A stretch of 64,000 bases of DNA from Persicimonas caeni (GTDB taxonomy: Bacteria; Myxococcota_A; Bradymonadia; Bradymonadales; Bradymonadaceae): positions 620,001-684,000 of the forward strand of contig NZ_CP041186.1 in assembly GCF_006517175.1 (NCBI RefSeq). Reading direction: 5' to 3'. The position numbers and the translations under genes were made by a program. The notes under the pieces were generated by a model. The model was not told where the DNA came from and made no database searches. It saw only the letters and a list, made by a program, of their open reading frames with translations. Of this stretch, positions 31,864 through 48,879 are shown piece after piece. How positions within the stretch are numbered: the stretch's first letter is position 1; each line of letters begins with the position of its first letter.

Positions 31864-32104
31864 GGCTCTGCGCTGGCCTCGACCAGCGCTGGAAGCGCTG
31901 CCTCCGAACTCGACGCGATCGGCAGTTCGGCTCCAGAACCACGCTCGTTAACACGACCCCCAAATCGTAGTTTGTCCGCTCAAATAGACGTTCGGGCTCT
32001 GCAGAATGTTCGATACGAACACCTTGCAAGGCCGCGGCGCTATTTGGGCAGACAAACGACAATTTGGGGGTCGTTTTGTTGGGGCGTTTGGGTGGTTGAA
32101 GCGA
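31864..32104. repeat. Composite palindromic repeat, long copy
   Basis: Part of the 31815-32651 non-coding island. It starts GGCTCTGCGCTGGCCTCGAC and contains the inverted arms 31954-31987 (CGACCCCCAAATC end outward) and 32040-32073, the same 34-base arm family found around the transposase at 47994, but with the opposite outward orientation. It ends GGTGGTTGAAGCG. A second, shortened copy is at 32502-32651. Confidence 0.85.
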
Positions 32105-45908: not shown

Positions 45909-45972
45909 CTATTTAGGCGGACAAACTACGATTTGGGGGTCGTTGTTTTGGAACGTGATCGGTCTTTGAGGG
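45909..45972 (+). repeat. Palindromic repeat, half copy
   Basis: A 34-base arm (CTATTTAGGCGGACAAAC start) plus 30 bases of inner sequence (TTGTTTTGGAACG). It lies exactly 64 bases upstream of the full copy at 45973, in the same arrangement as 48691 and 48755. With the full copy it occupies most of the 410-base gap 45812-46221. Confidence 0.9.
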
Positions 45973-46097
45973 CTATTTAAGCGAACAAACTACGATTTGG
46001 GGGTCGTTCCTCTGAACCGTGGTCGGTCTTTGAAGGTTCGAGAACCGACCACCGTCGATATCTCGACCCTCAAATTGTTGTTTGTCCGCCCCAATAG
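45973..46097. repeat. Palindromic repeat, full 125-bp copy
   Basis: Two 34-base inverted arms (CTATTTAAGCGAACAAAC ... and ... TTGTCCGCCCCAATAG) enclose an inner pair GTGGTCGGTCTTTG and AGAACCGACCAC. It can fold into one long hairpin. The 19 bases after it (CTCTCAGCAACCCTCCACT) also follow the copy at 47822. Confidence 0.92.
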
Positions 46098-46221
46098 CTC
46101 TCAGCAACCCTCCACTTCCGGAAGAGCCCTCCCCGATAAACCGTTCCCTCCTTGCCATTCCGACTGACGAGTCACATACTCGCCCTGTCGCTCATACAAT
46201 CCGCAGCCGAGGTCACCTCTC

Positions 46222-47787
46222 ATGTCCGCATCTGCCGAATCGTATCCCACTCCGGGGACCTTTTCGCCCGCCACTGGTGCCGAGCTCGAGCCGGTCGAGC
46301 AGACCCACGTCGACGAGGTCAAAGACACCGTCGAGCGCGCTCGCGCCGCCCAGAAAGAATGGCGGCTCACCACGCTCCACGAGCGGGAGGAGGCGATGCA
46401 AGCCATCGCCAGGCGTGTACTCGAGCGGGCTGACGAAATCGTCGAGATTATCTCGCAGGAGACAGGTAAAAACCCCTCCGAGATTCTGGTCAACGAGGTC
46501 TCCGGCATCGCCGAGTATGCAAAGATAGCCGCCAAAGAAGCGAAGGCGGCGCTGTCGCCGGTGAAAGTGTCGATTTCGAAGATCGCATACCCGGGTAAGA
46601 GCGCGACGGTCGAGCCGGTGCCCCGCGGAGTCATCGGCATCATCGCCCCGTGGAATTATCCCCTGTCGATTTTCTACAAGCCGCTCTTCCCTGCTCTTTT
46701 GTCGGGGAACGGCGTCGTCTTAAAACCCTCCGAGTTTACGCCCAGAACGGGCGCGTGGCTCGTCGAGCAGTGCCAGGCGGTGCTCCCCGAGGGGCTCGTT
46801 CGAGTTGTCCAAGGTGGCGGCGAGGTGGGCGAGGCGCTCATCGAGTCGGGGATCGACGGGCTGACGTTCACCGGTTCGGTGGCGACCGGAAAGAAGATCG
46901 CCGCGCGCTGCGGCGAGTTGTTGATCCCGTGCTCGGTCGAGCTCGGCGGCAAAGACGCCGCCATCGTACTTGCCGACTGCGACCTCGACCGCACGGCAAT
47001 AGGCATCGCGCAGTGGGCGCTGCACAACTGCGGGCAGAACTGCGCGGCCATCGAGCGGGTCTACGTCGAAGACGCCATCGCGGACCGATTCGTCGAAAAG
47101 CTCGGCCAGATTGTCGAGAAGGTGCGCGTCGCGGGCGAAGGCGAGCTTTGCGAGATTGGACCCCTTCAAAACCACCAGCAACTCGACATCGTCGAAGCCC
47201 ACGTGCGCGACGCCCTCGACAAGGGCGCCGAGCTCGTGACCGGCGGCGAGCGCACCGGAAGCGGGTTGGGTTACCGGCCAACCGTGCTCGATCGCTGCAC
47301 CGCCGAGATGGAGGTCGTCACCGACGAGACCTTCGGGCCGGTCATCGCGGTGGTGCGCGTCCAAGACGCCGACGAGGCGGTCGACAAGGCCAATGCGGCG
47401 CGCTATGGGCTCAACGGTTCGGTATGGACGAAGAACCTCGCCCGCGGCGAGGAGATCGCACGCCGGCTCGAAGTGGGCGTGGCGCTCGTAAATAACCACG
47501 CCATCGTCGGCTCGATGGCCAACGTGCCGTGGACCGGCGTCAAAGACACCGGCACGGGCGTAGCCGCCAGCCGCTTTTCGTACCACACCTTCGTGCGCCC
47601 GCGGACGGTCTTCATCGACAAGTCGAGCAAGCCCGACCCGTGGTGGTTCCCAGCCAACGAAGATCTGCAAGAACTCGGCGAGACGCTCGTCGACTTCTCG
47701 CTCGGCTCACTCACCTCGGTCCTTCGCCTGGCGAAGGTGGCAGGCCGGCGGGTGAAGGCGATTCAAAAGCTCGCGAGAGGTGACTGA
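46222..47787 (+). CDS. NAD(P)-dependent aldehyde dehydrogenase
   Basis: A 521-residue aldehyde dehydrogenase. The catalytic general base Glu240 is in VELGGKDA and the nucleophile Cys274 in NCGQNCAAIERV. Asn in PWNYPL (about residue 153) and the Rossmann GSVATGKKIAARC segment bind the cofactor. The C-terminal about 50 residues after FVRPRTVF extend beyond the usual end and are hydrophobic and basic (SLGSLTSVLRLAKVAGRRVK), possibly a membrane contact. The family oxidises aldehydes to acids; the substrate is not clear. The ATG at 46222 has GAGG nine bases upstream. Confidence 0.93.
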   Translation: MSASAESYPTPGTFSPATGAELEPVEQTHVDEVKDTVERARAAQKEWRLTTLHEREEAMQAIARRVLERADEIVEIISQETGKNPSEILVNEVSGIAEYAKIAAKEAKAALSPVKVSISKIAYPGKSATVEPVPRGVIGIIAPWNYPLSIFYKPLFPALLSGNGVVLKPSEFTPRTGAWLVEQCQAVLPEGLVRVVQGGGEVGEALIESGIDGLTFTGSVATGKKIAARCGELLIPCSVELGGKDAAIVLADCDLDRTAIGIAQWALHNCGQNCAAIERVYVEDAIADRFVEKLGQIVEKVRVAGEGELCEIGPLQNHQQLDIVEAHVRDALDKGAELVTGGERTGSGLGYRPTVLDRCTAEMEVVTDETFGPVIAVVRVQDADEAVDKANAARYGLNGSVWTKNLARGEEIARRLEVGVALVNNHAIVGSMANVPWTGVKDTGTGVAASRFSYHTFVRPRTVFIDKSSKPDPWWFPANEDLQELGETLVDFSLGSLTSVLRLAKVAGRRVKAIQKLARGD

Positions 47788-47821
47788 GCCATCAAGAACC
47801 GACCACCTTCGATATTTCGGT

Positions 47822-47946
47822 CTATTTGAACGGACAAACTACGATTTGGGGGTCGTTGTTTTGGAACGTGGTCGGTTTTTGAAACTACAAGAACCGACCA
47901 CCGTCGATATCTCGACCCTCAAATTGTTGTTTGTCCGCTCTAATAG
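47822..47946. repeat. Palindromic repeat, full 125-bp copy
   Basis: Arms at 47822-47855 and 47913-47946 (CTATTTGAACGGACAAACTA and its near-complement ending CCGCTCTAATAG), with the inner inverted pair GTGGTCGGTTTTTG and AAGAACCGACCAC. It is the same length as the copies at 45973 and 48755. Confidence 0.93.
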
Positions 47947-47976
47947 CTCTCAGCAACCCTCCACTGCTATCGACGG

Positions 47977-48040
47977 CTATTTGAGCGGACAAACTACGAT
48001 TTGGGGGGCGTCGTTTTGGAACGTGGTCGGTTCTCAGGGG
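47977..48040 (+). repeat. Palindromic repeat, half copy overlapping the transposase 3' end
   Basis: A 34-base arm with GGGGGGCG, then 30 bases ending GGTTCTCAGGGG. The transposase stop codon (47994-47996) and its last 15 or so codons lie inside this copy. Confidence 0.9.
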
Positions 48041-48503
48041 TCTCCTCTTTGGTTGTTGGCGGCTTCTTGTGGCACTCGCCCTTGAGGCTTTCGAGATGAT
48101 CGACGGTCTTGCCCGAACGATGGTTATCTTTCTGATGGACCACGTATTTCTTGACGAAGCCTACCTGGCGCGGACCGACGCTGAACGCTGACCAACCATC
48201 TTGCCACTCGAGCTCGGCTGTCTCGTAAGGCAAATTTGCCCGCGCGTCATTCCAAGCCTCGACGGCAGCAGCCTTCAACTTCTCGGCGGCGTCGTCGACG
48301 GATACAGACGGGTTCCAACTGAAAAATGAATGAGTATGATTCCACGCAGAGTTCACGCAAATCGGCACAAGCCCTAGCTCTCTAGCAGCGTCGCGAATTG
48401 CACGATGCGCAGTCTTCTCAAGGTCGCCCTTGAGAATGTTTTTGCGGTTCTTCGTACTCCAAACAAGGTGGATAAATATCTGCCAAAAACTATGTGTAGC
48501 CAT
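47994..48503 (-). CDS. REP-associated/IS200-like HUH transposase (Y1)
   Basis: A 169-residue single-strand transposase of the IS200/RAYT kind. The HUH motif is His56-Thr57-His58 in SAWNHTHSFFSW. The nucleophile is Tyr120 in VKKYVVHQKDNHR, which fits the YxxxQxxHH pattern of the family. The N-terminus has the family strand IFIHLVWSTKNRKNIL. Such enzymes cut and join single-stranded hairpin ends. The start is the ATG at 48503; the open frame above lacks family similarity. The C-terminal tail (ENRPRSKTTPPKS) is encoded by the half palindrome. All catalytic residues are present, so it may be active. Confidence 0.85.
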   Translation of the reverse strand: MATHSFWQIFIHLVWSTKNRKNILKGDLEKTAHRAIRDAARELGLVPICVNSAWNHTHSFFSWNPSVSVDDAAEKLKAAAVEAWNDARANLPYETAELEWQDGWSAFSVGPRQVGFVKKYVVHQKDNHRSGKTVDHLESLKGECHKKPPTTKEETPENRPRSKTTPPKS

Positions 48504-48690
48504 CTCGTTCTCGCTATTCGTAGGTAAATGTTCAGGGCACATCTCCGGTGCCCGCCTACTACTGTTTTCGACAAAATCGGCGAGTTTGTTGCGTATTTGC
48601 CTCAAGAAAATGAGCGGTACGACGCTCAGAGGCGCACGACGTGCGCACGATCGCGAAGTTCCCTCAAACGGAGTCTCTGTTCATCGTCGG

Positions 48691-48754
48691 CCATTTAAGC
48701 GGACAAACTTCGATTTTGGGGGCGTCGTTTTGGAAGGCGGTCGGTTTTTGAGAT
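48691..48754 (+). repeat. Palindromic repeat, half copy
   Basis: Arm CCATTTAAGCGGACAAACTT with GGGGGCG and 30 inner bases (TCGTTTTGGAAGGCGGTCGG). It starts exactly 64 bases before the full copy at 48755. The 460-base gap 48504-48964 otherwise shows no gene. Confidence 0.9.
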
Positions 48755-48879
48755 CTATTTGGGCAGACAAACTACGATTTGGGGGTCGTCGACTTGGAAC
48801 GTGGTCGGTTTTTGAAACTACAAGCACCGACCACCGTCGATATCTCGACCCTCAAATTGTTGTTTGTCCGCTCTAATAG
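48755..48879. repeat. Palindromic repeat, full 125-bp copy
   Basis: Arms at 48755-48788 and 48846-48879 (CTATTTGGGCAGACAAACTA and the reverse ending CGCTCTAATAG) around the inner inverted pair GTGGTCGGTTTTTG and CACCGACCACC. Confidence 0.93.

Follow-up and report, generated by a model that had tools for sequence, protein, structure and literature searches.

The locus raises the question of whether an intact Y1 (HUH) transposase gene and the palindromic repeats around it form a REPtron-like unit, and to which branch of single-strand transposases the enzyme belongs. The window, meaning the whole analysed stretch of 64,000 nucleotides (G000:C1:620001-684000), lies in a single-contig genome of 8.05 Mb.

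Repeat copies around the transposase gene

The initial annotation described three 125-bp copies, three 64-bp half copies and an arm pair at 31954-32073. All were confirmed at their positions and are given below together with the transposase gene, tnp.

31954..31987, minus strand: A arm matching the consensus perfectly; forms an outward-facing pair with the arm at 32040
32040..32073, plus strand: A arm, with CTGCAG and CCTTGCAAGG boxes between 31987 and this arm
45909..45972, plus strand: half copy, 64 bp, A arm and inner half
45973..46097, plus strand: full palindromic element, 125 bp, with A arm, inner GTGGTCGG/CCGACCAC pair and inverted A arm
47822..47946, plus strand: full palindromic element, 125 bp
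47977..48040, plus strand: half copy, 64 bp, directly 3' of tnp and holding its last 12 codons and stop
47994..48503, minus strand: tnp, Y1 (HUH) transposase of the IS200 class, 169 aa, with H56-T-H58, Y120 and the motif YVVHQKDNH (Pfam Y1_Tnp, 1.3e-17)
48691..48754, plus strand: half copy, 64 bp, 5' of tnp, in the orientation of the 47977 copy
48755..48879, plus strand: full palindromic element, 125 bp

Pairwise identity among the three full copies was 106-118 of 125 positions, and the two half copies around tnp were 89% identical (48683-48746 compared with 47969-48032). The chance expectation for the 34-base arm, allowing up to five mismatches in 64 kb, is approximately 3e-8. The arm pair at 31954-32073 faces outward with the minus-strand arm first, which is the reverse of the order in the full copies. 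The tnp reading frame is intact, running from an ATG at 48503 to a stop at 47994, and is flanked on both sides by half copies (47977 and 48691) of an abundant palindromic family. The earlier description of an intact Y1 transposase with Tyr120 among the copies was thus borne out by the 169-aa frame. The "HTH" ascribed to it is present as His56-Thr57-His58, the HUH motif, and is not a helix-turn-helix.

Class of the resident enzyme

The resident enzyme had been viewed as the RAYT of a REPtron-like system. The REPtron-like unit was upheld by the analyses reported here, but the RAYT identity was not: signature, REP model and tree all spoke against it and for the IS200 branch. The tnp product scored 63.5 bits with NF033573 (transpos_IS200, cut-off 55) and gave no match to NF047646 (REP_Tyr_transpos). 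The RAYT motif Y---NP following the catalytic tyrosine, NP(L/V)(R/K)xG, is absent; the 11-member clade to which the enzyme belongs has Y---QK--H at this place, read as YVVHQKDNH in the window. The clade consensus is YIxxQKxHHR together with WQ, the window enzyme itself having N at the first H, and residues H56, H58, Y120, Q124, K125 and H128 are invariant across the clade alignment. Compared with solved structures, the clade profile matched the IS608 and ISDra2 TnpA proteins at about 1e-14 and did not match any TnpAREP structure even at E 10. In a tree of 90 proteins, which contained no class 3 sequence, the clade formed one group (support 100/96) among IS200-type enzymes, and the outgroup, E. 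coli RayT, lay far outside it on a very long branch. The TnpA-Y1 class 3 motif YV[VI][AENY]EQ and longer core were also absent, the glutamine standing 4 rather than 5 residues after the tyrosine in every clade member. Nearly all wider relatives have Y---Q--HH, the subclass 1.2 signature. RAYT membership was therefore rejected on motif, model and tree position and, as judged from its sequence, the enzyme is an IS200-class TnpA that groups with the IS608 and ISDra2 TnpA proteins and subclass 1.2.

Dispersal of the repeats and their pairing with transposases

The repeat census was based on pattern searches of the genome and on individually retrieved stretches, with reversed patterns as controls. 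The pattern CGGACAAACTACGATTTGGGG, at up to three mismatches, gave 82 matches genome-wide (reversed control 0), and the shorter tail pattern AACTACRATTTGRGGGTCG gave 160 (reversed control 3), demonstrating that arms also occur outside the window. The arm family is dispersed approximately 157 times across the genome, mostly between genes; 147 units were listed, a few of them chance matches without a foot. Clusters were intergenic in 49 of 54 cases compared with 87% coding in the surrounding sequence (p 3e-37, an approximate value obtained with our own crude ORF caller).

Each arm consists of a foot (CTATT), a middle and a conserved tail (AACTAC-N-ATTTGNGGG); most units have both foot and tail, and the middles vary. 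On the opposite strand the arm reads GTAG-TT-hairpin-AATAG, in which the middle is a hairpin of variable stem in type B and a short linker in types A and D. Type A, the type of the window, has a foot-to-tail distance of 15 nt, and 89 units have exactly that spacing. Type B1 spans 27-30 nt with the hairpin GCGCC-TGAACTGC-GGCGC, and type B2 spans 33-35 nt with the hairpin GCGAGGGC-loop-GCCCTCGC. Mean stems were 7.4 bp for B2, far longer than shuffled stems, and 5.1 bp for B1, compared with 4.3-4.4 bp after shuffling, and the B stems show compensatory changes (for example GCGAGGGC/GCCCTCGC, GTGAGGGC/GCCCTCAC and GCGAGGTC/GACCTCGC). The window A arm is without the strong self-hairpin of a classical REP, its best being the 4-bp TTTG/CAAA, and keeps the GTAG; type B arms, which share its foot and tail, do carry a strong hairpin and read GTAG-TT-hairpin on the reverse strand.

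Neighbouring arms were convergent in 53 cases, same-direction in 22 and divergent in 5, so that the intergenic inverted doublets typical of REPINs, which can fold into a single hairpin, are present, and the GTAG side faces inward in most elements of this genome. B-B elements joined one B1 end to one B2 end in 16 of 16. Half units of 62-65 nt form tandem arrays whose interiors are near-identical within a locus and different between loci. B elements do not adjoin the window tnp. A within-genome search by shared flanks found no empty site, and no excision intermediate was found either.

Three paralogues of tnp are present in the genome, at 6666k (58% identity), 4646k (50%) and 1381k (40%); there is no near-identical second copy, the closest being the 58% paralogue. 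The 6666k paralogue lies inside family D (CTATTGACGTGGAACTACCATTGACGGGCGGACG; 25 arms, control 0) and the 4646k paralogue inside family C (CTACATAGGCAATTAAGGACATAGGGGCTGCG; 129 arms, control 0), both families being dispersed and mainly two-armed. The repeat flanking the 1381k paralogue is another one, 195 bp long, and a single B element lies some 900 bp off. The idea that families C and D are A arms that have diverged was weighed and not adopted; family D has CTATT..AACTAC in common with them, and family C no more than CTA[CT].T, plus the loop of the B1 hairpin in two copies. The two family C elements concerned (L259:1356-1600 and L260) have the B1 hairpin with the TGAACTGC loop, which suggests module exchange between families. 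Altogether 26 Y1 transposase matches were observed in the genome (G000:C1), about 20 of which are longer proteins (open frames of about 260-520 aa) with weak Y1 profile scores; no A or B arms were found at these longer proteins in the stretches examined.

An insertion sequence (IS) lying in two arms (L047/L066) surfaced as a shared flank during the empty-site search. This IS encodes a 501-aa transposase and is present six times in the genome (L047:797-2493, L066:712-2408, L254, L255, L256 and L257). All six copies lie inside the ATTWGG/CCWAAT-like (CTATTWGG-like) foot of elements that are palindromic or related to them (types A, B2 and C included), five with a 6-bp target duplication; it is an IS that targets these elements. 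Since the IS sits in the foot in every case, the foot is a shared, recognisable feature across families. Insertion of an IS into REPs is already known for ISPpu9 (PMC8450116). A GCCTTGCAG box was also observed, in which TTGCA starts exactly 20 nt outside the foot (7 AB, 7 C and 8 D cases) and which could be a cleavage or target site. The CCTTGCAG box was initially read as a host terminator sequence; this reading was dropped because the exact 20-nt distance to the foot in three families makes an element part or target more likely.

Among 58 relatives, the arm core was enriched in only five genomes, with 135, 38, 32, 30 and 25 matches, and the remaining relatives had 0-3 matches, like the control. 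The five enriched genomes are G000, G002, G014, G019 and G020. Close orthologues of tnp (at least 47% identity) were found in three of the five arm-rich genomes (G000, G014 and G019) and in none of the 53 others, a co-occurrence with an unadjusted chance of 3e-4, ignoring shared ancestry. The arms are thus not equally common in genomes lacking the transposase, the outcome named in advance as fatal to the pairing, and the enriched genomes include all three with a close orthologue. The expectation that arms would lie beside related transposases in sister genomes held in G014 and G019, which are of a different genus in the same family and whose orthologues (57% and 47%) are flanked by diverged CTATT..AACTA arms. 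It did not hold in G002 and G020, fragmented MAGs (93% and 87% complete) in which no close orthologue was found; G002 has 38 arms, clear A-type arms among them, no clade member and only one weak Y1 match. The repeats can therefore exist where the gene is not found, which may be due to loss, incomplete binning or the activity of another enzyme. In sister genus g3 (L244, L246, L318 and L323; G020 and G002), the two arms of a pair often point outward and have their CTATT feet on the inner side, different from the window genome, where most pairs are convergent. Since two paralogues lie in families of their own and the sister-genome orthologues are flanked by diverged arms, the enzyme-repeat pairing is not accidental.

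Flanking repeats were also sought at 77 further homologues with enough flanking sequence, mostly from other phyla. In 31 of the 77, a repeat common to both sides of the gene (at least 40 bits) was found, compared with 3 of 96 shifted controls, and in the 20 examined, units with several hairpins made up most of the repeats (mean folding z -3.3, control 0.0). The cyanobacterial linker CGCGGCTACACAAACAAARCC had 106-405 copies in 5 of 10 genomes tested (control 0-1). In filamentous cyanobacteria (L172, L174 and L192; G058-G061 and G067), a CGCGGCTACACAAACAAARCC-linked double-hairpin repeat was also seen to flank a subclass 1.2 Y1 gene. The flanking repeat of Anaerolineae (L152 type) was not abundant: two genomes had 9 and 2 copies, and five others had none. 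The case for the wider group is therefore strong in cyanobacteria alone. A repeat association across the wider enzyme group is a plausible generalisation and not an established one.

Proposed mechanism, rival explanations and significance

The elements are best read as REPtron-like, as palindromes that are not autonomous and that an IS200-class TnpA processes in trans in single-stranded form, a reading to which a probability of about 0.78 is assigned. The arm would be the recognition unit, and a short non-autonomous element would be made up of two arms, usually inverted, and a spacer. The Y1 enzyme, whose gene lies amid elements of its own family, would bind single-stranded, folded DNA, probably at the replication fork, and Tyr120 would cut beside the arm with the tetranucleotide next to the hairpin as guide. 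Re-joining of the cut element elsewhere would lead to spread between genes and growth into tandem arrays. Counting against this reading are the negative search for empty sites and excision intermediates, the arms of G002 and G020 where no clade member was found, the weak hairpin of the A arm, the B elements that do not adjoin the window gene and the outward-facing arms of sister genus g3. The sequence evidence establishes the dispersal of the arms, their structure, a repeat family specific to each transposase, the class of the enzyme and its intact catalytic residues. Arm binding and the tetranucleotide-guided choice of cut are proposed by analogy with TnpAREP (PMC8266576) and IS608, and a RAYT-like function of the enzyme by analogy with the E. 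coli and Marinomonas TnpAREP proteins (PMC8266576); binding, cleavage, the guide role and mobilisation in trans are in this sense what we infer.

The IS200 class of the enzyme, the distinct B1 and B2 ends of B elements, which resemble LE and RE, and the position of tnp between two equally oriented half copies would also fit an ordinary IS200/IS605 element accompanied by decayed, transposase-free, PATE-like copies, the arms being the ends of a still autonomous IS. This is unlikely, as the genome has no second near-identical tnp, the dispersed elements that were read are too short to hold one, and single arms, half copies in tandem and two-arm units make up the majority. Somewhat less likely still is that the repeats are structured RNA or DNA elements kept by the host (terminators, mRNA 3' stabilisers or nucleoid binding sites) and that the transposase is a hitchhiker that landed in an array. 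The elements are indeed intergenic, their long hairpins would make strong RNA structures, and the gene pairs flanking them are more often convergent than divergent (15 versus 6, with 28 tandem). Such a reading is opposed by the three paralogues and the orthologues in two other genomes, each in its own family, by the tandem arrays with locus-specific identical interiors and by the repeats on both gene sides in the wider relatives (31/77, control 3/96), although host use and mobility of the elements are compatible. A classical RAYT/REPIN system with a diverged enzyme is very improbable: the lack of Y---NP, of an NF047646 match and of a TnpAREP structure match at E 10 and the placement in the tree with IS200 enzymes outweigh a layout that is otherwise alike, with repeats on both sides of the gene, inverted doublets in intergenic positions, GTAG beside the hairpin and, as described for rayt (PMC2817692), the 3' end of the gene inside a repeat.

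RAYT/TnpAREP enzymes cut the single-stranded REP at CT. The tag lies at the outer ends of the doublet in the REPINs of SBW25, unlike the inward GTAG of most window-genome elements; outward-facing pairs do occur in sister genus g3. The preferred reading of REPtron-like elements shares with the REPtrons and REPINs of E. coli, Stenotrophomonas and Pseudomonas (PMC2817692, PMC3116915, PMC8266576) a Y1 gene amid its own palindromic family, one family per enzyme, intergenic inverted doublets and tandem arrays. On one strand GTAG stands 2 nt from the hairpin, as in Marinomonas REPs, where it is two bases from a 5-bp palindrome (PMC8266576). The system differs from RAYT systems in that the enzyme is IS200-class and not class 2, the CTATT foot is conserved beyond the hairpin, some arms are short and without a strong hairpin, and GTAG is mostly inward in the window genome. 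IS200-type TnpA is common to these elements and to IS200/IS605 insertion sequences (class 1.1), but a set of near-identical tnpA copies is not. Like PATEs, the transposase-free IS605 relatives of Haloquadratum (PMC3119063), the elements are short, non-autonomous, tied to IS200-type enzymes, with near-terminal palindromes, and favoured targets of other elements. PATEs, however, have no inverted terminal repeats, some having arisen by deletion of an IS605 core (PMC3119063), whereas here a spacer lies between two inverted arms and no enzyme gene has more than one copy. TIRtrons (PMC3733652) likewise have a Y1 gene flanked by moderately abundant repeats that are not classical REPs, but their TIRYT enzymes belong among the relatives of class 2, and most of them have HTH-like domains at the C terminus (PMC6006769); the enzymes here are not of that kind.

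TnpA-Y1 subclass 1.2 was listed without REPs by Quentin et al. 2018 (PMC6006769), with hosts mainly in Cyanobacteria and Bacteroidetes. The enzymes described here resemble that subclass in their WQ and Y---Q--HH motifs, length near 150 aa and low copy number. In contrast to the survey, they are REP-associated and found in Bradymonadales, and the wider group also has flanking repeats. The conflict is with how the survey describes the subclass, and not with the class assignment of the enzyme. Short mobile palindromes thus seem to be run by a transposase branch said to have none. It is an evenly balanced matter whether subclass 1.2 as a whole (in Cyanobacteria, Chloroflexota, Armatimonadota, Gemmatimonadota and Bradymonadales) amounts to a second extensive group of single-strand transposases, each running its own palindromic family; such systems would have escaped notice because searches relied on a GTAG-at-foot form that their repeats do not have. 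No description of a REP-transposase partnership in the IS200/subclass 1.2 branch, and no paper on repeats in Bradymonadales, was found among the open-access papers searched.

The finding extends the REP-transposase partnership from the RAYT branch to IS200-class enzymes, its suspected ancestors. An enzyme can now be named for abundant palindromes of the Bradymonadales and probably also for the repeats that reach high copy numbers in filamentous cyanobacteria. One genome now provides three or more enzyme-repeat pairs for a comparison of specificities, and the origin of a REP family from an IS and the determinants of enzyme-repeat specificity become testable questions.
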